A DNA stretch of 64,000 bases, taken from the NCBI GenBank assembly GCA_025782575.1, contig JALGYY010000017.1, positions 919,892 to 983,891 on the forward strand, read 5' to 3'. The DNA is from a bacterium (GTDB lineage: Bacteria; Orphanbacterota; Orphanbacteria; Orphanbacterales; Orphanbacteraceae). The notes below the pieces were generated by a model, which searched no databases, was not told where the DNA came from, and saw only the letters and a list, made by a program, of their open reading frames with translations. Of this stretch, positions 7,440 through 52,240 are shown piece after piece. Both the position numbers and the translations under genes were made by a program. The first letter of the stretch is position 1. The number at the start of each line of letters is the position of its first letter.

Positions 7440-7463
7440 CCCGAGAGTCGTGTGGGACTCCCT

Positions 7464-7565
7464 TAATTCTGGGGACATTAATTCTGGGGACACAATACTT
7501 AATTCCGGCAAGACGGGTCGGGGGAATTAAGTATTGTGTCCCCAGAATTAATGTCCCCAGAATTA
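7464..7565. repeat. Palindromic intergenic repeat, copy 1
   Basis: A perfect inverted repeat with two 43-bp arms (7464-7506 and 7523-7565) around a 16-base loop. Each arm holds TAATTCTGGGGACA twice, followed by CAATACTTAATTCC at the inner side. The core GGGGACACAATAC is shared with copies near 41.7 and 54.7 kb. It lies between the convergent MATE and acyltransferase genes and could act as a bidirectional terminator. Elements of this look are commonly found near REP-associated tyrosine transposases, but no transposase is in this window. Confidence 0.9.
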
Positions 7566-7576
7566 GGGGGGTCGGC

Positions 7577-10881: not shown

Positions 10882-11505
10882 GTGCATAAGCGACTTCCCC
10901 CCCATGAGTTAGATGAAAGGGAGAGCTTGAATTTTTCCAGTCCTGAATTTCTCGACCAGGTAAGAAAGAAGGATCCAGAAGCACTAACCGCCATCGTGAA
11001 GGCGTATGGAAAGCAGATCTTTCGGGCTTCCCTCGGCGCCGGCCTCCGGGAACAGGAAGCCGAAGAGGTGGTGCAGGAAACCTTCACGGCTTTTGTGCAG
11101 AATGTCTCCCGTTTCGAAGGGAGATCGCACATCCGCACATGGCTGTTCGGGATTCTATACAACAAGATCGCCGAGTCCCGGCGGAAGAAGAAGCGGGATC
11201 TCGCGAATGACTCGATCGATGATGTCTTTGAATCCCGATTCGATATGAACGGATCGTGGACACGGCCGCCGAGAGACGTGGAAGCGCTCTTCTCGGATTC
11301 GGAACTCCGCGATCAGATTGGTTCGTGCATGGAGGGACTCTCCGATAATCAAAAGAACGCCTTCATGCTTCGCGAAGTCGAGGGTTTCCCGAGTCCGGAA
11401 GTCTGCGAGATTTTAGGAGTAACGGCGACCAATCTCGGCGTCTTGATCTATCGGGCCCGGAACAACCTGAGAGAATGCCTGGAAGCGATGGGAGTAGGAA
11501 AGTAG
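10882..11505 (+). CDS. ECF-type RNA polymerase sigma factor
   Basis: A 207-residue sigma factor. Region 2 spans about residues 30-105, with EAEEVVQETFTAFVQNVSRF and HIRTWLFGILYNKIAE. Region 4 spans about residues 145-200, with LSDNQKNAFMLREVEGFPS and the helix-turn-helix SPEVCEILGVTATNLGVLIY. The GTG at 10882 would be leaderless. A TTG at 10927 preceded by AGGGAG is an equally plausible start and would remove 15 residues. It is followed two bases later by a zinc-finger protein that is probably its anti-sigma factor, and then by the DUF3179 gene, suggesting one operon. Confidence 0.93.
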   Translation: MHKRLPPHELDERESLNFSSPEFLDQVRKKDPEALTAIVKAYGKQIFRASLGAGLREQEAEEVVQETFTAFVQNVSRFEGRSHIRTWLFGILYNKIAESRRKKKRDLANDSIDDVFESRFDMNGSWTRPPRDVEALFSDSELRDQIGSCMEGLSDNQKNAFMLREVEGFPSPEVCEILGVTATNLGVLIYRARNNLRECLEAMGVGK

Positions 11506-11507
11506 CG

Positions 11508-11786
11508 ATGATGAACTGCCGCGAAGTGAGCCGCATGATCGCCGACGGATCGGCAGAGGGAGCGGGCTTTCTCGCCCGCATGCAGATCCGTTTCCATCAC
11601 CTGATGTGCGGTCATTGCAGAAGTTTCGCATCGCAGCTCCGTGCGGTCGGAACAGCTGCCCGGGCTCATATGGACAAACAGGAATCTTCGTCGACCGGGC
11701 AGGGCGGAATCGAAGATCGTGTAATCAAGAAAATCCTGGAGCAGGACGACTCCCCAGAGACAACTACAAAAGGCGGCAATTCATGA
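11508..11786 (+). CDS. zf-HC2-type zinc-finger protein, probable anti-sigma factor
   Basis: A 92-residue cytoplasmic protein. MNCREVSRMIADG followed by HHLMCGHCRSF gives the His-x3-Cys-x2-Cys zinc site of anti-sigma ZAS domains. There is no membrane segment, so it would sense a soluble signal, perhaps redox through the zinc thiolates. The start at 11508 is preceded by GGAGTAGGAA, which lies at the end of the sigma gene. Its TGA overlaps the ATG of the next gene (ATGA), coupling it to the DUF3179 protein. Confidence 0.8.
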   Translation: MMNCREVSRMIADGSAEGAGFLARMQIRFHHLMCGHCRSFASQLRAVGTAARAHMDKQESSSTGQGGIEDRVIKKILEQDDSPETTTKGGNS

Positions 11787-12829
11787 CAAAGAGACTGATC
11801 CTGATTTTACTCCTCTTCCCCGCTTTCACCGCGTGGGCCGATGAGCCTGAAGACGTCGAGTTGATCGACGGCGACCGGATCTATACCGTACTCGAATTCG
11901 ACGGAATTCCCGCGATCGATGATCCGGTTTTCGTGAGCGCGGCAGAAGCGGACTCGTTCCTGAATCCCGATGAGATGATGATCGGGGTTTCAATCGGCGA
12001 CGAGGCGCGGGCGTATTCCACCTGGCATCTCGACGGCCATGAAATCGTGAATGATGTGGTGGGAGGCACGCCGATCGCCGCTACATGGTGACCTCTCTGC
12101 TATACCGCCATCGTGTATGAGCGGACGGTAGCAGGCGAAGCGACCACATTCGGTGTGAGCGGCAAACTCTGGCGCAATTCTCTCATTATGTATGATCGAG
12201 CCACAAAGAGCCTCTGGAGTCACGTCCTGGGCGAGTGCCTGGACGGCGTGCGCCAGGGGGAAACTTTGACTGTTGTTCCCAGCTCCCAAACGACCTGGGC
12301 CGAGTGGAAGGCCGCATACCCCCACACGCTGGTATTACAGAAAGACGCCACAGAAATACAGGACGGCTCTCATTACGATCGCTACTTCACCGACCCGGAT
12401 CGCATGGGGATTCACGGATACGAGAATGATGACGTCCGTCTCGAAGGGAAAGATATCGTGATCGGCGTCCGGCAAGGGACGAGCAGGGCCGCCTATCCCC
12501 TGAAGAACCTGGAGACCCAGCCCCTCGTCCATGATACGATCGGTGATGTTCCGATTCTGGTGGTGTATTCGAGTGAGAGCCATTCGGCTTACCTGTTCGA
12601 CCGCCGCGCAGGAGATCGCGAGCTTCATTGGACGCCCGTTCCCGACACGAAAGGTCTTCGTCTGAAAGATGACGAAACCGGATCGATCTGGGACGGAACG
12701 CGAGGTGAGGCGATATCAGGCCCCCTCGCCGGAACACGCCTCGATCCTGTGACGTTTACGAAAGTCTTCTGGTTTGCGTGGAGCCAGTTCTTCCCGCAAA
12801 CATCGATCTGGAGCCCGGACCGAAATTGA
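11783..12829 (+). CDS. DUF3179 selenoprotein with in-frame UGA read as selenocysteine
   Basis: The frame opens with a signal peptide (RLILILLLFPAFTAWA) and runs 348 residues, with a single TGA at 12089-12091 (codon 103). Before it stands HEIVNDVVGGTPIAATW and after it PLCYTAIVYERTV. The DUF3179 family normally has Cys at that position (pattern Y/W-C-P-L-C), so the motif becomes U-P-L-C, a selenenylsulfide-type redox pair. The family signature FGVSGKLWRNSLIMYDR follows in the same frame. A hairpin suited to be a bacterial SECIS starts a few bases after the UGA. SelB/SelA/SelD/tRNA-Sec genes are not in this window. DUF3179 has no firmly known role; an exported thiol-redox activity is plausible. 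Pseudogene status is the alternative. Confidence 0.85.
12096..12135 (+). promoter_or_regulatory. Candidate bacterial SECIS hairpin
   Basis: Directly after the UGA, 12097-12102 (CTGCTA) pairs with 12129-12134 (TAGCAG). After a small internal loop, 12105-12111 (CCGCCAT) pairs with 12117-12124 (ATGAGCGG), leaving one bulged A at 12120 and a five-base apical loop CGTGT. Bacterial SECIS elements lie within about 40 bases after the UGA, with a short upper stem and a G among the first two apical-loop bases; here the second loop base is G. The pairing is seen in the sequence; binding by SelB is inferred. Confidence 0.6.
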
Positions 12830-14718
12830 GCAGCGCCCCCAAACCTTTCGTTGCGCCTGAAAAATCGATCGCGGAAGCGACACTGATCGCCGTCGGTCTC
12901 GGCCTCGCGATCGGCCTGGTCATGACCGCCGCGAATACCTATCTCGGGCTATACGCCGGAATGACCGTAAGCGCTTCGATTCCCGCCGCAGTCATCTCCA
13001 TGGGGATTCTGCGGGGCATATTGAAGCGGGGCACGATCCTCGAAAACAACATCGTGCAGACCATCGCTTCCGCAGGAGAGTCGGTCGCGGCCGGAATCAT
13101 CTTTACCGTGCCGGCGCTCGTGCTGACGGAAGCGTGGCATAAATTCCATTACTGGCCAGTCACTCTGATCGGCATGCTCGGCGGCCTGCTCGGCGTGCTC
13201 TTCATGATCCCACTTCGTCGAGCGCTCATCGTGGAAGAAGAGGAGCTGATCTACCCGGAGGGGCTCGCCTGTGCGGAAGTACTCGAAGCGGGAGAACGGG
13301 GGGGCACCGGCCTGAAGACCGTTTTCGGCGCGATGGGTCTCGGTATGCTCTTCAAGACGATGATCGGAGGTGTGGCGATCATCAAGGGGACAGTCGAGTG
13401 GGCCACTCGGGCGGGCAACACGATTCTTTATATGGGAAGCGACCTCTCCCCCGCTCTGCTGGGCGTCGGATTTATCGTCGGCCCCAATGTGGCGACTCTC
13501 GTCTTTCTCGGCGGCGCCATCGGCTGGCTGATCGCGATTCCCATCTATGTCGCATCGAGCGGATTGATCGGCGTCACCGACTATGTCGCCCATGCCGGTT
13601 CGATCTGGGATGCCCAGATCCGTTATATGGGTGTGGGGGCGATGGTGGTGGGTGGCCTCTGGTCAATCTGGTCGGTTCGCCATGGTATTCGGAAAGGGAT
13701 CCAGGGGGGGATCGGCGGTTACAAGGGCGAAACCGATGAGACGGGCCGGGCCATTCGAACAGAGAGAGACATGCCCATGAAGCAGCTCGGGCTCATGCTG
13801 GCGCTCATTCTGCCGGCCGTTTTCGGCCTCTACATTTACCTGGCCAATGGCGTAATAATCGGCCTGCTCGCCGGCCTCATCATGACAGTGACCGGTTTCT
13901 TCTTCGTTGCGGTATCAAGTTATATCGTCGGACTCGTCGGCAGCTCGAACAACCCCGTTTCGGGGATGACGATCTGCACAGTGCTGTTCGCTTCGGGCCT
14001 CTTGCTCCTGTGCGGGCTTACGGGAACGACCGGAATCATAGCTGTGCTCGGTATTGCCGGCGTAGTCTGCTGCGCCGCCTGTACGGCGGGTGACGTATCC
14101 CAGGATCTGAAGACCGGCTGCATGCTGGGTGCCACGCCTGTCAAGCAGCAGTGGACTCAAGTTATCGGCGTGATAGTGCCCGCATTTATCGTCGCGCCGA
14201 TTCTCATGGTGCTTCATCATTCGTACGGAATCGGCGATCAGCTCAGGGCGCCCCAGGCGACCCTATTCGCCAGCCTGACAAGCACCATGTTTAAGGGGGG
14301 AACGCTTCCCTGGGCCATGATCATTGCCGGTGCCGCGATCGGGATCGCCATTATTATCATCGATCTGATTCTGAAAAGCCGAGGCGCTTCTTTTCGCGCA
14401 CATGTCATGCCTGTGGCGGTCGGTATCTATCTGCCCCTTTCTTTATCTGTTCCCATTCTCGTGGGCGGGCTGGCCAGCTATTTCGTCGCGCGAGCTGTTC
14501 GTGGCGGCGGGGAAAAGGCCATAAGTAACGCACAAAGCAAGGGCGTACTCTTCTCTTCCGGGCTCGTTGCCGGGGAGGCGATCACCGGAGTGATTCTGGC
14601 GACGCTGATCTTCTTCAACGTCAATCTGCCGATCCAGGTGTTCGACAGCTCCGCTCTTTCCCTGATTCTGTTCGCTGCGATCGTCGCTATTCTCATCCGG
14701 GCTTCGAGAAGAAATTAG
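12826..14718 (+). CDS. OPT-family oligopeptide transporter
   Basis: A polytopic membrane protein of about 630 residues with at least 14 hydrophobic segments. Family features include AANTYLGLYAGMTVSASIPA near the N-terminus, the NIVQTIASAGESVAAG motif, LVGSSNNPVSGMTI in the middle, and DLKTGCMLGATPVKQQW in the C-terminal half. OPT proteins import oligopeptides or metal-chelate complexes with protons. The TTG at 12826 overlaps the TGA of the selenoprotein gene (TTGA) and gives the usual short family N-terminus (KPFVAPEKS). An in-frame GTG at 12778 is the alternative start. Confidence 0.93.
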   Translation: MSSAPKPFVAPEKSIAEATLIAVGLGLAIGLVMTAANTYLGLYAGMTVSASIPAAVISMGILRGILKRGTILENNIVQTIASAGESVAAGIIFTVPALVLTEAWHKFHYWPVTLIGMLGGLLGVLFMIPLRRALIVEEEELIYPEGLACAEVLEAGERGGTGLKTVFGAMGLGMLFKTMIGGVAIIKGTVEWATRAGNTILYMGSDLSPALLGVGFIVGPNVATLVFLGGAIGWLIAIPIYVASSGLIGVTDYVAHAGSIWDAQIRYMGVGAMVVGGLWSIWSVRHGIRKGIQGGIGGYKGETDETGRAIRTERDMPMKQLGLMLALILPAVFGLYIYLANGVIIGLLAGLIMTVTGFFFVAVSSYIVGLVGSSNNPVSGMTICTVLFASGLLLLCGLTGTTGIIAVLGIAGVVCCAACTAGDVSQDLKTGCMLGATPVKQQWTQVIGVIVPAFIVAPILMVLHHSYGIGDQLRAPQATLFASLTSTMFKGGTLPWAMIIAGAAIGIAIIIIDLILKSRGASFRAHVMPVAVGIYLPLSLSVPILVGGLASYFVARAVRGGGEKAISNAQSKGVLFSSGLVAGEAITGVILATLIFFNVNLPIQVFDSSALSLILFAAIVAILIRASRRN

Positions 14719-45470: not shown

Positions 45471-47676
45471 TCGCTATCTTCTCCTGAGGGGTGGGCTCGC
45501 GACGCTCTTCAGTCTGATCCGGCCGGAAGAATGACCGGCCCTGCATATGTCTCGGCGCGGCAATACCGAAGAGATCGAGCACCGACGCGGACATGTCAAT
45601 AATGCACGGATTCTCACGGACGAGCCTCTTGCTCGAGAAGAGAATGCCGGGTACGAGCCGCCAATCCGTGCAATGGTCACCGCTCCACGCCTTCGGATTA
45701 TCGTGGATCACCCGGCCGTCCGCTTTCCCGACCGCGGCGGCCCATGACTGCCTGTAGTTGTGATTGAAGCCGGGCAGCAGATCGGGACCATTCCCGACAT
45801 ATGGCCCGTCGTAGAGCTCGTTCGTAATAAAGACTTCCGTGATCGCCACATCATTGTTCCGCTCGGAATCGCGAAGCCCGGACAGCTTCTCTTTGATCTC
45901 CCGGCGTAATGCCTGAGCTTCTTCACCCGGTTCGACGATCCCCTGCCCTTCACGACCCTTGATATTCAGATAGATTCCGGTGAGACCGAAACTGTAGGCC
46001 TTTGTCTTCGACCAGTCGACGCCGCGAAACCAGTCGGAGCAATCTGTGCCGCCATCCTTCATATACATGTAGCCATTCTCGACGAGCCACGAATTCAGAT
46101 TGAATCCCCGTGCGAACTGAGTGAATCCATGATCGGACATCACCATCAGGACCGTCTTCTTGTCCTTCTCCGTGATTCTCATGATCCGCCCGAGCATCTC
46201 ATCCATGCGCTCATAGAGATTGTCGATCGCTCCCTTGTGGACTTCTGTATCCTGGCCTTGATTGGCGGGATGATCGTCGAGCTTGTATCGATGAAACATG
46301 TGCTGAATCCGGTCGGTTCCGTCGAACACGCAGACCAGCAGTCCTTTCCTGCATTGACTGAGAGCGTTGAAGAACATCTTCTCCCGCTCCTCATGCGTGA
46401 GCCAGGCCTGTTCCAGAAACGCCTGCTCATCGATCACCCGCTCATTCAGCCCCCAGGTATCCTCGCAGAACCCGAGTGTGGCGTAGCTTCCCTGCAGCTT
46501 CGAAAGATAAGTGGAATAATAGGCCGGATGGGAAATCGGCATGGCCGGCTTCTCCGGGTCGATCTGCACCGGCGAAACATAAAGTTTAAAGTGAGGCGTC
46601 ATCTCCATGACATAGAAGCGAACAAGTCCCCAGACTTTGATTCCCAGCCCCGGCTTGAACGCCGTGCGGATCCAGGGGGAATACTCTTTAGGCTTCAGCG
46701 TGAATTTCTCACCATTAAACTCGAAGTGGGCAACCCCTTTGGCTTCATCAATCTTGATCTTGAACGGCTCTCGGAGCTCCTCGTTATCTTTCGACATCGA
46801 ATTTTCGGGCCCGGGAACGTAGGCTTCGACTATGTCATTGACCTTCTTGATACGGTATCGAACACCGCCGGTCGCTTCACCCAGTTCACTTTCATCGTCC
46901 GTATAATAGGTAAACGTCCCCTGGGATCCCTTGAGATCGGGAACGCACATCGCCGAGAGAAGAACCCCTTTGTGTTTTTCCGGCGGGAAAGTAATCGGCA
47001 CTCGCAGTACATGCGAAAAAATGCCGTAATCGCCGAGAATCCTCCAGAACGGCACCGACTTCCGGAGCATGCGGATCACCGGCTTGCCTAGAGGGATCTT
47101 GTATTTGCCGAGATTCAGCGTTCGGGAGACATTCCCGATAAAGACCGATGCGAGATCGGGCAGATAGGTTTTGGGATCGCGATTCAGGAAATCGAACTGG
47201 TTGTGCCTCGAGGGATCGACACCCGTAGCGAATGACGACCAGGCGACCGGGGACATGGCGGGCATCACGGTTTCGAGCTGCTGGAAATCGCCGCTCTCCG
47301 CGAGCTCCTCGAAGTTGGGCATTTTCCCTTCGTCCATGTACTTCCGGCAATAGTTGGGATCGAGTCCGTCGAGTCCGACAATCACCACGCGTTCGGTGTC
47401 CGTTTTGGGCGCTCGTTTCTTGAAGATCAACTTCCAGAGGAAGCGGATCGGCCAGAGCAGGATCGAAGCCATCGCCAGTACGAACGTGACGAAGAAGACT
47501 GCGAATGAAGAGAGAAATGCAAAGCCCGCACCCGGCCCGATGTACGCGTCTACCGGTGCCGGCGTGGCGGCGAAAAGTGCCACCAGCGCTACGAGAAAAA
47601 AGAGGCCCCGCGGAGCCGGAACAGAACCGGGCGCGATCTGTCCGCCCCATCCGCCCGTTCCTTTCAGTCTAGCCAC
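45463..47676 (-). CDS. AP-superfamily phosphodiesterase with AYIGPGAG membrane anchor
   Basis: A 737-residue protein. A cleavable-looking signal ends at PAPVDA, followed by YIGPGAGFAFLSSF and a membrane segment (FVTFVLAMASILLW). Basic residues (FKKRAPK) come next, so the catalytic domain may face the cytoplasm. The AP motifs are intact: VIVGLDGLDP, PAMSPVAWSSFATG, FDGTDRIQHMFHRY, VMSDHGFTQF and WSGDHCTDWRLVPGILF. The GTG at 47676 overlaps the upstream stop and has AAGGGGG nine bases before it, so it is preferred over an ATG 33 bases earlier. It is closely related to the 43422 gene. Confidence 0.88.
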   Translation of the reverse strand: MARLKGTGGWGGQIAPGSVPAPRGLFFLVALVALFAATPAPVDAYIGPGAGFAFLSSFAVFFVTFVLAMASILLWPIRFLWKLIFKKRAPKTDTERVVIVGLDGLDPNYCRKYMDEGKMPNFEELAESGDFQQLETVMPAMSPVAWSSFATGVDPSRHNQFDFLNRDPKTYLPDLASVFIGNVSRTLNLGKYKIPLGKPVIRMLRKSVPFWRILGDYGIFSHVLRVPITFPPEKHKGVLLSAMCVPDLKGSQGTFTYYTDDESELGEATGGVRYRIKKVNDIVEAYVPGPENSMSKDNEELREPFKIKIDEAKGVAHFEFNGEKFTLKPKEYSPWIRTAFKPGLGIKVWGLVRFYVMEMTPHFKLYVSPVQIDPEKPAMPISHPAYYSTYLSKLQGSYATLGFCEDTWGLNERVIDEQAFLEQAWLTHEEREKMFFNALSQCRKGLLVCVFDGTDRIQHMFHRYKLDDHPANQGQDTEVHKGAIDNLYERMDEMLGRIMRITEKDKKTVLMVMSDHGFTQFARGFNLNSWLVENGYMYMKDGGTDCSDWFRGVDWSKTKAYSFGLTGIYLNIKGREGQGIVEPGEEAQALRREIKEKLSGLRDSERNNDVAITEVFITNELYDGPYVGNGPDLLPGFNHNYRQSWAAAVGKADGRVIHDNPKAWSGDHCTDWRLVPGILFSSKRLVRENPCIIDMSASVLDLFGIAAPRHMQGRSFFRPDQTEERREPTPQEKIANG

Positions 47677-49000
47677 CGTTCGAATCCCCCTTGGTGAGCC
47701 TGTTCTCAATCACAGACGCAATCCCAGTAATATCAAAGGCCTCCGGCATTTTGTCCGGGCTCCATAGAAATGCGTCGTCCCAATTGTGCATCCCAGTGAA
47801 ATGGCTCCTACCGAACGGATCGCCCGATCGATGCCACCCCTTTACATCATAGCCGTCATTTGCCACAAGGACCAGATCCGGACCACGGTGTTTCTCGGGG
47901 CCCGAGTAAAGATCAGCCCCCAGATGTCCCGCCTGAAAGACCTTCTCCCCCTGATATTCGACAGCAAGCGCCTTTTCTCTAAGCTCCTCACAAAGGGGTC
48001 GGACCTCGTCGCTACGCACCCCACCCCGCGGGAATCGATCAGCCGTGTGAATGTAGATGCGAGTCGGATCGAGTGCGAGCGCCAGCGCCCCGGGCGCAAT
48101 CTCTTCGAACCCGGTTGCATTGTCCGACCGGTAGGCGAGGTACCCCTCGTTTTCGAGCCAGGCGTTCAGGTAGAACTCCTCTTTGATCTCGGTGAAACCA
48201 TGATCGGAGAGCGCGAAAAACCCGGCGCCGCTTTCATCACCCGTCTTCTCGATATACCGGTCGAAGGCCCGCCCGAGAAACGCGTCGACATCGTGATAAT
48301 AGTCCAGGAAGCGTTGATGATTCCCATGGGATTCGTCGAACGCCCCATCCATCTGAAAGTGCATCAGCCGATCGGTTCCGGTGACGACGATCTCGAAGAG
48401 ATCCCACTCTTTCTCCCAGAAGTAATCGAACGCCCGCTCCCGTCCTTCGAGCGTGGAACGCAACTGCTTGAAGAGAAAATCGGCGTCTTGCCCCCCCTTT
48501 CGGGAGTCCACGTCGATCTCGTAATCCATCTCGATCAATTTGTCATAGAGTGTAATCGGATGAACCGCTCGCTTCATGTCGATCGCGACGAAACCGGAGA
48601 CGAGCATCCCCGGGATCGGCCTCGCCGGATAGGTAGACGGCTGATTGATTACAATCGAGCGCTTCCCCTTTTCGCCGAGCCTGTCCCAGAACGTCGATGC
48701 TTTCAGTTCGGGAAAAGAGGGAAAGCGGATATCGTAGCTTCGGGGTTTGAAGTCGGTGAATCCATAGACACCGTGGACGCCGGGGCCGGCGCCTGTCATG
48801 AAGCTCGTCCAGCTCACAGAAGAGACTTCCGGCAGGGTGACTTTCATTCGATGCAGCGTGCCACGCTCGAAAATTTCCACCGCCCGAGGCATGACCCCCT
48901 CGTCCATGAACCGGCGGAGCAATTTATGCGGAACGCCATCGACGCCGAAGACACATGCCTTCGGCGCCGACTTCCCGCGCTTCAAAAACTTGAAAGCCAA
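47669..49000 (-). CDS. Cytoplasmic AP-superfamily hydrolase
   Basis: A 443-residue protein without signal peptide. Motifs: CVFGVDGVPH, PEVSSVSWTSFMTG (Ser nucleophile), VTGTDRLMHF, ALSDHGFTEI and FTGMHNWDDAFLWSP, so the two-metal site appears complete. It begins at TTG, supported by GGAG seven bases upstream, and follows the APS kinase gene by 19 bp. Its cytoplasmic location places it in the same compartment as the Sat/CysC products. The substrate could be a nucleotide such as APS, PAPS or PAP, or a lipid precursor; neither is shown by the sequence. Confidence 0.87.
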   Translation of the reverse strand: MAFKFLKRGKSAPKACVFGVDGVPHKLLRRFMDEGVMPRAVEIFERGTLHRMKVTLPEVSSVSWTSFMTGAGPGVHGVYGFTDFKPRSYDIRFPSFPELKASTFWDRLGEKGKRSIVINQPSTYPARPIPGMLVSGFVAIDMKRAVHPITLYDKLIEMDYEIDVDSRKGGQDADFLFKQLRSTLEGRERAFDYFWEKEWDLFEIVVTGTDRLMHFQMDGAFDESHGNHQRFLDYYHDVDAFLGRAFDRYIEKTGDESGAGFFALSDHGFTEIKEEFYLNAWLENEGYLAYRSDNATGFEEIAPGALALALDPTRIYIHTADRFPRGGVRSDEVRPLCEELREKALAVEYQGEKVFQAGHLGADLYSGPEKHRGPDLVLVANDGYDVKGWHRSGDPFGRSHFTGMHNWDDAFLWSPDKMPEAFDITGIASVIENRLTKGDSNGG

Positions 49001-49019
49001 ATGAGGCTCCTAGTGGTTC

Positions 49020-49622
49020 CTAAAGATAGCCGAGGTCTTTGAGCCGCTGCTTGATCTTCTCCTCTTCCTCATCAGAGAAATCCTGCGAAGCGTCGGCACC
49101 GGGCACGAGTCCCATCAGTTCGAGAGTCCGAATGATTTTCTGGACACTCTCTTCCTCGCTCTCCTTGTCGGTTTCGACAAGAATCTCAGGATTCAAAGGC
49201 TCCTCGTACGGATCGTCCACGCCGGTAAAGCCCTTGATCTCTCCCGCGAGCGCCTTGGCGTAGAGCCCCTTTACGTCACGGTCGGTAAGAACTTCCAGAG
49301 GACACTTGCAGTAGACCTCTACAAAATTGTCGATCTTGTCGCGGTTCATATCGCGGATCTCACGATACGGGCTGATGGCCGAAGCGATCGACGCAACGCC
49401 GTTTCGGCTGAGGAGCTGGCAGACAAAACCGATCCGCTTGATGTTCTCGTCACGATCTTCTTTCGAGAAGCCGAGCCCCTTCGACAGATTCGTGCGAATC
49501 ACATCGCCGTCGAGAACCTCAACTTTGAGACCCCGCTCACGCATGATGTCTTCCACCTGGCGGGCCAGGGTCGTCTTGCCGGAACCGGAAAGTCCGGTGA
49601 ACCAGAGAGTAAAGCCTTTCAT
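49020..49622 (-). CDS. cysC: Adenylylsulfate (APS) kinase with LGYL tail
   Basis: A 200-residue kinase that phosphorylates APS at the 3' position to form PAPS. The Walker A loop is GLSGSGKTT (residues 10-18). [20 protein letters not shown] and [17 protein letters not shown] are APS-kinase signatures, and [20 protein letters not shown] forms the lid region. Residues beyond about 175 exceed the usual length: an acidic stretch is followed by [12 protein letters not shown], the same tail as on the two RHH proteins of the operon. GGAGG and AAGGA precede the ATG. No PAPS reductase or recognisable sulfotransferase is in the window. Confidence 0.95.
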
Positions 49623-49694
49623 TTCCTTCGTATCCTCCTGCGAGCCGCCTCCCGGGCGCTCTCGTCGTTGCTACGCTCGTTTCGCCGTGCCGCC

Positions 49695-51074
49695 TTAGAA
49701 GAGAGGCTCGCCGATCATCTGCTTCGGCTGATCGATATCGAAGTACTTCATGATTGTCGGAGCGATGTCATAAATCGAATAGGGGTCTTTGGCATTCGGA
49801 ACGATTTTCGCCGGATGATCCCAGATGAATATGCCTTCCCAGTCGTGGTTCGTATCGTCGTGCTCCCCTTCGGTATCTTCGAGATGGAGTTCGCCTGAGC
49901 CGACCCGGCCTGCGGCGCGCCAACCAAGATTGCCGAAAAAGACGAGGAGGTCCGGCGCCACACCGGTCACTTCGGTGAACGTCTCCTCGGGATAGAGCAC
50001 CTTCGTACCGATCGAATTTCCCGAAGGGCCGGCCACAGCTTCGAGCTTCTCTTTCAGCTCCCGCCGGAACCCGTCGGCCTCCCCTTCCGGGATCGTCCCC
50101 TTCGTCTCCCGGCCTTCGATATTCAGAAAGACGCGGCCATAGTTCCCGCCGGTAGCCCACGCTTTCGTCTTCTTCCAGTCGATCATGTCGTGCGTGAGCG
50201 GCCCCGGCTCCTCCGGCTTCTTCTTCAGCTTGAGGAGCTTCTCCTGAATGAGCCACTCGTTCACGCATACCGACCCTTCGAGCCGCCGTGCGCCGTAGGC
50301 GGACGTGATCATGACCGATGTATCCTGCGGGAGGGAATCGAGCAGATTGCCGAGTTCCTCATCAAGAAACACATAGTAGTCATGGAGCGCCTCGGCGTGC
50401 CGGCTGTCAGGCACGAACTTGGGATGTTCCGGATCCATGAAGCGCCAGAACGCCCGCTGCATCCGGTCGGTGCCTACTTCCCCCAGCATCATGAAGTCGA
50501 ACTCCTTCTGCTGGGCGTAGTATCGAAACGCCTCGAAACGGCGGCGCGTCATGTCCTTGATCTGCTCGATCAGCCAGTCTCTGGCGTCGGTGCGATAATC
50601 TTTCGTGTCGATGACGTAGTCGCCGCGCGCCACATTGTCCACTTCACCCGCCGCTTCACGCGGGTGGGTCCATTGCACCGACTTGTTGGGCGTCAATATG
50701 CCGGAGACAAGAACACCCTTCATCGGCTTAGGAGGCCAGGTCTGCGGAACACCCATCACGAGCGAGTTCAGACGGAGCCGGGAGAGGTGGTTCCATATCG
50801 TTTTGCCGCGCACGTCCGTCGAATCGAGGGCCGTCATGGAATCGTATTCTCTGCTCCCATGCCCATCGAACTCATAGAGGCCGAGCTGCCCCGGATCCTG
50901 GCCGGTCACCATCGACGTCCACGCGGGAATCGTCACAGGCGGAGTGGTCGATTGGAGCCTGCGATGAAGCCCATCGTCCATCACCGACTTGATGTTCGGC
51001 AAATCGTCTATCCATCGCTGGAAAACGAGTTCGGGGGGTGCGCCATCGAGTCCGATTAAAGCGAGACGACTCAT
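49695..51074 (-). CDS. AP-superfamily paralogue with degenerate metal site (probable pseudoenzyme)
   Basis: A 459-residue cytoplasmic protein that aligns along its length with the AP-superfamily proteins of this operon. ALIGLDGAPP and PPVTIPAWTSMVTG (Thr in place of Ser) are kept. The other metal-ligand positions are altered: GTDRMQRAFW has Arg where paralogues have His, and TSAYGARRLEG replaces SDHGF, losing the Asp and His. It is therefore probably not a two-metal hydrolase and may bind a ligand or hold partners together. It lies between sat and cysC. AAGGAGAAGGG precedes the ATG. The C-terminus is QMIGEPLF. Confidence 0.85.
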   Translation of the reverse strand: MSRLALIGLDGAPPELVFQRWIDDLPNIKSVMDDGLHRRLQSTTPPVTIPAWTSMVTGQDPGQLGLYEFDGHGSREYDSMTALDSTDVRGKTIWNHLSRLRLNSLVMGVPQTWPPKPMKGVLVSGILTPNKSVQWTHPREAAGEVDNVARGDYVIDTKDYRTDARDWLIEQIKDMTRRRFEAFRYYAQQKEFDFMMLGEVGTDRMQRAFWRFMDPEHPKFVPDSRHAEALHDYYVFLDEELGNLLDSLPQDTSVMITSAYGARRLEGSVCVNEWLIQEKLLKLKKKPEEPGPLTHDMIDWKKTKAWATGGNYGRVFLNIEGRETKGTIPEGEADGFRRELKEKLEAVAGPSGNSIGTKVLYPEETFTEVTGVAPDLLVFFGNLGWRAAGRVGSGELHLEDTEGEHDDTNHDWEGIFIWDHPAKIVPNAKDPYSIYDIAPTIMKYFDIDQPKQMIGEPLF

Positions 51075-51088
51075 TTGACCCTTCTCCT

Positions 51089-52240
51089 TTATTGATCCTT
51101 GTAGAACGACATGAGGAGCTCCGCCACCTCAGGACGAGTGAACTCGGGCGGAGGCATCTTGCCCTCGGCCAGCATGGCCCGTACTTTCGTCCCGCTCAGG
51201 AACACATGATCTTCCGATCCGTGTGAGCAGGTCTTCGACGATGCCATATTGCCGCATTTCTTACAGAAGAACGAGTGATCAAAAAACATCGGCGTAATAT
51301 CGATTTCGTAGCGATCGAATTCGGCGAAGATATAGTGCGCGTCGTACGTGCCGTAGTAGCTCCCTACGCCGGCGTGGTCACGGCCCACGATGAAGTGGGA
51401 GCATCCGTAGTTCTTGCGGACCAATGCATGAAATACCGCTTCCCTCGGGCCGGCATACCGCATCGCGGCCGGAAAGATGGAAAGGGCGGTCCTGGTGGAC
51501 GGATAGTAATTCTCGAACAGGATCTTGTAGCACTCCATCCGGATCTCAGCCGGGATGTCCCCCTTCTGAGTCTCACCGACCAGCGGGTGAACGAGCAGCC
51601 CGTCCACGATCTCGAGGGCGCACTTCTGCAGGTACTCATGAGCCCTGTGGATCGGATTGCGGGTCTGGAAGGCGACAATCGTCTCCCACCCTTTGGCCTT
51701 GAACAGAACGCGCGTCTCTTTGGGATCGAGCCGGAAATTCTCAAATCGATTGTGCTGGGGCCGCTTGAGAAGCGAGATCGTGCCGCCAAGGTACGTGCCT
51801 ATGATCGTGTCGAGATAGCGAACGCCCGGATGAGCATCATCGTTCGTCAGGAGTACTTTGGAGGCCTCCTGCTGCTTGTCGACTCCGTATTTCTCCTCGA
51901 GGTCCATCACGGCGAGAATTTCACCATCCGATTCGACGAGGGCGATCTGATTCCCCTCGACGAACTCATCGCCGTCACCCTCTTTCACCGCAAGCACCAC
52001 CGGAATCGTCCAGGGGAGCCCTTTGGCAAGACGTTTGAGGTCGAGCACGGAAAGATAGTCTTCCCGGCCCATGAAGCCTTCCAGGGGGCTCATGGCCCCG
52101 ATGGCGATCATCTCGAGATCGGCGGTCTCCCGATCGTTCAGCGTGAGCTTCGGGAGAGAAGGAGCGAGGGATTCCAGCTGTTCGCGCTCCTTGCCCTCCG
52201 CGATGCGGTTGATCAGTTTTCCGCCGTGTGCCTTGATCAT
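51089..52240 (-). CDS. sat: Sulfate adenylyltransferase (ATP sulfurylase)
   Basis: A 383-residue monofunctional ATP sulfurylase that makes APS from ATP and sulfate. Signature motifs are QTRNPIHRAHEY in the active site and IVGRDHAGVGSYYG. A zinc-type CKKCGNMASSKTC segment and FLSGTKVRAML near the C-terminus also fit the dissimilatory/archaeal-like Sat group. AAGGA precedes the ATG. It is the second gene of the RHH-sat-AP-cysC operon. With CysC it would supply PAPS; without a reductase nearby, use for sulfonation rather than cysteine synthesis is plausible. Confidence 0.95.
   Translation of the reverse strand: MIKAHGGKLINRIAEGKEREQLESLAPSLPKLTLNDRETADLEMIAIGAMSPLEGFMGREDYLSVLDLKRLAKGLPWTIPVVLAVKEGDGDEFVEGNQIALVESDGEILAVMDLEEKYGVDKQQEASKVLLTNDDAHPGVRYLDTIIGTYLGGTISLLKRPQHNRFENFRLDPKETRVLFKAKGWETIVAFQTRNPIHRAHEYLQKCALEIVDGLLVHPLVGETQKGDIPAEIRMECYKILFENYYPSTRTALSIFPAAMRYAGPREAVFHALVRKNYGCSHFIVGRDHAGVGSYYGTYDAHYIFAEFDRYEIDITPMFFDHSFFCKKCGNMASSKTCSHGSEDHVFLSGTKVRAMLAEGKMPPPEFTRPEVAELLMSFYKDQ

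Follow-up and report, generated by a model that had tools for sequence, protein, structure and literature searches.

The DUF3179 gene at positions 11783-12829 of the window, the whole 64,000-nucleotide stretch of DNA analysed here, is predicted with strong support to encode selenocysteine (Sec) at an in-frame TGA in codon 103. We interpret the TGA as Sec because the host has the sel machinery, a SECIS hairpin follows the codon and the TGA is conserved across phyla. The combination of a UGA at a conserved active-site cysteine, a SECIS element, a complete Sec pathway in the host and cross-phylum conservation of both UGA and hairpin is, in our judgement, practically certain. A secreted or periplasmic DUF3179 selenoprotein, working as proposed below, is the best explanation of the whole, and we consider it highly probable. 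DUF3179 (pfam11376) is already known as a selenoprotein family and the window gene is a new member: two reviews list it among predicted selenoprotein families with a UxxC/T motif (PMC9312934, PMC13188914), which bears out the statement in the original prediction that Sec-containing members had been recognised. Both reviews credit the family to the 2007 study of the Olavius algarvensis delta-1 symbiont by Zhang and Gladyshev. The family described there has the same Pfam assignment and UxxC/T motif, and its Sec was reportedly predicted by Cys/Sec pairing; the window member differs in coming from Candidatus Eisenbacteria. The additions made here are the breadth of the family, a covarying SECIS element, the duplication, a predicted fold and a dispensable second Cys.

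In-frame TGA, SECIS hairpin and selenocysteine machinery

The gene and its features are located as follows.
11783..12829, plus strand: DUF3179 gene, predicted selenoprotein of 348 residues plus stop, with Sec at codon 103
within 11783..12829, plus strand: predicted N-terminal signal peptide (MTKRLILILLLFPAFTAWA-DEP), read from the sequence, with the hydrophobic run confirmed
11897..12325, plus strand: first repeat, about residues 39-181, carrying H86, E87, N90, U103, C106, R114, D138 and W145
12089..12091, plus strand: in-frame TGA, codon 103, the U103 of W-U-P-L-C, placed by homologue alignment
12089..12124, plus strand: SECIS element, consisting of the TGA, a 13-nt spacer, the stem and an apical loop
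12425..12805, plus strand: second repeat (about residues 215-341), a homologue of the first with a predicted fold that resembles Rieske/NirD proteins

The frame starts with ATG at 11783, ends with TGA at 12827-12829 and contains a single in-frame TGA, at 12089-12091, confirming what had been predicted. The read-through frame matched PF11376 over residues 40-340 (290.1 bits against a cut-off of 27, E 2.6e-86), so that family conservation flanks the TGA on both sides, and codon 103 aligned exactly to the first Cys of the CPLC motif conserved in DUF3179 homologues. A single in-frame TGA in a long frame is nothing special on its own. Among the 2,016 TGAs compared in the window, five were preceded by at least 100 open codons and followed by at least 200, and the other four of these either lie antisense to ordinary genes or come immediately before them. 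An open-frame scan of the window for other selenoprotein genes gave 181 candidates at a loose setting and was non-discriminating. It is the two-sided homology, together with the TGA in 54 of 80 relatives and the conserved hairpin, that sets TGA103 beyond chance. Such genes get split or truncated at the TGA by standard gene calling.

The stem of the window hairpin (CCGCCAU/AUG-A-GCGG) has seven pairs and one bulged A, and its 5-nt loop, CGUGU, has a G at loop position 2 and lies 20 nt from the TGA. Published limits for bSECIS elements are a loop of 3-9 nt, a stem of 4-16 bp, a G in the first two loop positions, a UGA-to-loop distance of 16-37 nt and a minimum free energy of at most -7.5 kcal/mol (PMC13188914). 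The window hairpin lies within them in loop, stem, G and spacing, and so does its energy of -17.2 kcal/mol, computed over 45 nt; the 24-nt hairpin on its own gave -7.2 kcal/mol, and an Rfam search returned no SECIS match. Across 58 Sec genes, the window gene included, the hairpin stands 13 nt after the UGA with up to seven pairs and a 5-nt loop that is mostly CGUGU, and at least six of the seven pairs form at this fixed distance in 57 of them when one bulge is allowed. The bulged-A variant CCGCCAU-CGUGU-AUG-A-GCGG is common to the window gene and the two relatives closest to it, and elsewhere the two sides of the stem change in concert (CGGGCAU/AUGCCCG, CGGCUAU/AUAGCCG, CUGGAAU/AUUCCAG). In an alignment of 38 sequences, 92.5% of the stem cells were paired, as against 27-46% in slid registers; double-sided changes numbered 36 versus 9.1 in shuffles, and the covariation of 0.412 (shuffled, 0.126) was reached in none of 500 shuffles. 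The mean number of stem pairs was 6.9 of 7 in Sec genes, 3.9 in Cys homologues, most of which lack the hairpin, and 4.9 after random synonymous recoding. No part of the gene is more frozen than codons 106-114 in three Eisenbacteria orthologues, where all comparable codons are identical against a gene-wide rate of 27%. This covariation of the mRNA hairpin independently confirms a family that had earlier been predicted by Cys/Sec pairing.

A search of the host genome (4.88 Mb, 95% complete) for selA, selB, selC and selD, proposed with the original prediction, found all four: selA at 524.6 bits, selB at 378.6 bits, selD at 379.1 bits and tRNA-Sec at 72.7 bits, the last also called by ARAGORN as tRNA-SeC with the anticodon TCA (UCA). 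Together with the SECIS element and the cross-phylum TGA, this upholds the assignment of the DUF3179 gene as a selenoprotein gene. The host selD (G000:C46:271946-272869, L021) has an in-frame TGA of its own at the AG-U-AAK active site, and SelD is therefore probably a selenoprotein itself.

Distribution and ancestry of Sec and Cys forms

Codon 103 is TGA in 54 and Cys (TGT or TGC) in 26 of the 80 relatives from named genomes. Sec forms are spread over about ten phyla: Eisenbacteria, Methylomirabilota, Chloroflexota (including SAR202), Acidobacteriota, Poribacteria, Tectomicrobia, Nitrospinota, Planctomycetota, Rokuibacteriota and Zixiibacteriota; the archaeal relatives found were all Cys. Two genomes of the same family as the window genome (G001 and G005) have TGA at the identical codon. 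The family is widespread, and its members from uncultured phyla (Poribacteria, SAR202 Chloroflexota, Methylomirabilota and Eisenbacteria among them) often contain Sec. SelB was above the cut-off in 25 of the 30 genomes with Sec forms and in 10 of the 20 with Cys forms (Fisher p 0.025), an association that is weak because the genomes are incomplete.

That TGA103 is a true stop, in a pseudogene or through a sequencing error for TGC or TGT, would be in keeping with the single assembly for the host genome and with the finding that long frames with an in-frame TGA are not rare (the five two-sided cases in 64 kb). However, the identical TGA is present in three related genomes and in the 54 relatives from many phyla, a hairpin with compensatory changes is tied to it, synonymous codons are frozen just at that hairpin, and the host has the complete sel set. 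The conservation across phyla effectively refutes a true stop, which we regard as exceedingly improbable.

A tree of 72 DUF3179 proteins was built with the Sec site excluded; it has no fixed root, and many of its inner branches are weakly supported. One branch has Sec in 46 of 49 members, and the three Cys members (L039, L043 and L057) are nested inside it, in genomes that still have SelB. Two Sec members (L026 and L099) were placed in the Cys part of the tree. The Sec state is clustered on the tree, with 6 changes against 20.4 after shuffling. On a parsimonious reading, the large clade would descend from a Sec ancestor and would have reverted to Cys three times, and Sec would have been gained twice more; the direction of change is inferred.

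The host genome has three DUF3179 genes: the window gene (UPLC), one on C11 with HPLC and no TGA, and one on C20 with UPLV. The last (G000:C20:178936-179394, L003) is of the Sec type with a SECIS-like hairpin and a lipoprotein-like N-terminus, and its sequence stops directly after the first repeat; it is perhaps a natural one-domain form. A Luteitalea DUF3179 gene (L091, 5223 onwards) has, downstream of the Sec TGA, one more TGA and also a TAG, and appears to be a decayed copy or an assembly error.

Duplication, predicted fold and chemistry at residue 103

The halves of the DUF3179 protein are homologous, and sequence comparison identifies it as a tandem duplication: residues 40-180 aligned with residues 215-345 at E 1.2e-33 in hhalign, and the second half of the window protein found the first half of L037, a relative labelled Candidatus Eisenbacteria, at E 1.9e-8 in tblastn. 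HEIVND and U/CPLC occur only in the first repeat, and the second is devoid of the His-Glu and Sec/Cys motifs. Among 70 sequences, H86, E87 and N90 are invariant, residue 103 is nearly always U or C, and C106 is less conserved; Arg114, Asp138 and Trp145 of the first domain are invariant or nearly so. The plain N-terminal signal predicts that the protein is exported, that is, secreted or periplasmic, in agreement with the original prediction.

The AlphaFold2 model (pLDDT 93.5, pTM 0.89) consists of two domains built mainly of beta strands, and the predicted structure is nearly all-beta. The best rows of VIA-align were Rieske/NirD-type chains (best Z 9.4 over about 92-95 residues of the second repeat), and the Foldseek match of the model to a Rieske-like fold was weaker (E 5e-3). 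We have moderate confidence that the modelled domains are Rieske-like in fold. The resemblance to Rieske/NirD proteins concerns the predicted beta fold of the second repeat (model residues 232-330, Z about 9); DUF3179 differs from them in its duplication, in lacking the C-x-H...C-x2-H ligands and in showing no significant profile similarity. Comparison of profiles with Rieske sequences gave probabilities of 0.4% and 7% (29 rows, of which L140 looks wrong), and the C-x-H and C-x2-H cluster ligands are absent from both repeats. Because strand 88-93 is in register with 96-103 (86 + 103 = 93 + 96), H86 should face residue 103 across a tight beta-hairpin in the model. We considered whether CPLC could be the C-P-x-H ligand loop of a Rieske protein, U103 supplying its Cys, and rejected this, because U103 falls in a strand-turn ahead of the ligand loops both in the repeat alignment and in a structural alignment with almost no gaps (model 232-330 to chain 2-96); the hairpin that holds the Sec matches no ligand loop. 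The literature that we found naming DUF3179 contained nothing on its fold, and that found on the family did not describe a duplication, a Rieske-like fold, Sec limited to the first copy or a Sec-ancestral clade. For a domain of unknown function, the analysis supplies a predicted fold, evidence of duplication and a few active-site residues that can be tested.

In the working that we propose, SelB with Sec-tRNA would decode UGA103 as Sec and give the full-length protein, and the read-through ribosomes could reach the overlapping start of the OPT transporter gene. The protein would be a pair of homologous Rieske-like beta domains with no Rieske cluster bound, His86 would help to keep Sec103 as the selenolate, and oxidised Sec103 would be resolved by C106 or by an external thiol. 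We take such a His86-assisted selenol/thiol redox centre in the cell envelope to be the most likely working, with a confidence slightly better than even. Outside the family of the window organism, no partner enzyme recurs beside the DUF3179 gene, and the redox role is without contextual support.

The chemistry claimed originally was a U103-C106 selenenylsulfide. As a catalytic or structural pair it has in its favour the C106 of the window protein and of 51 of the 58 Sec forms, and a UxxC spacing like that of thioredoxin-like selenoproteins. However, the remaining seven Sec forms have Ala (five), Thr (one) or Val (one) at position 106 and keep both the TGA and the hairpin, and the structure matches included no thioredoxin-like chain. 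With C106 lost in these seven, the selenenylsulfide cannot be the general mechanism of the family; we lean somewhat against such a pair, though the link may exist in the window protein itself. DUF3179 shares the UxxC motif and the envelope location with UxxC thiol oxidoreductase selenoproteins (thioredoxin-like and DsbA/DsbG-like), but differs from them in its predicted all-beta fold and dispensable second Cys. Alternatively, Sec103 and His86 might mainly bind a metal or metalloid ion, in a protein for metal binding or sensing and not a thiol oxidoreductase. An invariant H86 next to a soft Se/S ligand, the transporter genes nearby (OPT, and RND/HlyD downstream), CPLC as a possible metal pair and the retention of H86-E87-N90 in members devoid of the thiol are consistent with this. 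Against it, no gene related to metals keeps its place beside DUF3179 from phylum to phylum, C106 is variable, and neither repeat has Cys or His at the Rieske ligand positions; we consider metal binding unlikely as the main function.

The thiol-less members also bear on the question, raised with the original prediction, whether codon 103 is Cys or UGA throughout: it is in all 80 relatives from named genomes, and some DUF3179 members have Ser, His or Asn at 103 and retain H86-E87-N90. This retention suggests a role with no need for a thiol, and part of the family may function in that way.

Sec forms devoid of the second cysteine (UPLA/UPLT) were seen in Acidobacteriota, Planctomycetota and G030 (L088, L092, L096, L097, L078 and L026).

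Operon and neighbouring genes

The genes flanking the DUF3179 gene are the following.
10882..11505, plus strand: ECF-type sigma factor, which opens the cluster and is conserved in three related genomes
11475..11786, plus strand: small putative zinc anti-sigma factor (HHLMCGHC), whose stop overlaps the DUF3179 start (ATGA)
12826..14718, plus strand: OPT family transporter (TIGR00733), probably starting at a TTG, following DUF3179 in all three related operons

The gene order in three related genomes is an SLC13-like transporter on the opposite strand, the ECF sigma factor, DUF3179 and the OPT transporter; across phyla no partner gene is conserved, and the recurring neighbours are clade-specific. 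The small anti-sigma frame contains the zinc motif H-x3-C-x2-C, and its anti-sigma match is below threshold. It had been taken to suggest redox-controlled expression of the operon. That idea is unsupported: of the three related operons, those of the window and L037 have the gene and that of G005 (L030) lacks it, and an H-x3-C-x2-C motif is not in itself evidence of redox sensing.

The DUF3179 stop and the OPT start overlap as TTGA in the window (12826-12829) and in L030, and as ATGA in L028 and L037. The occurrence of this overlap in relatives suggests translational coupling, through which Sec insertion or supply may affect or limit translation of the transporter. That the protein is a cluster-less duplicated Rieske-like protein in which a selenol opposite the invariant His has assumed a redox role, with Sec ancestral and the Sec codon gating the transporter, all of this jointly, strikes us as quite improbable. 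If it were true, the Cys forms inside the many-phyla Sec clade would be secondary, and selenium supply would control transporter synthesis in Eisenbacteria through the gating of the overlapping gene by the Sec codon.

Elsewhere in the window, an inverted repeat lies between two genes at 7456-7573 (51 nt, 96% complementary, 16-nt spacer, unit AATTCTGGGGACA), which we take to resemble elements mobilised by REP-type Y1 transposases. The minus strand at 47669-52240 carries, as read from the letters, two alkaline-phosphatase-superfamily-like genes together with APS-kinase-like and sulfate-adenylyltransferase-like genes.
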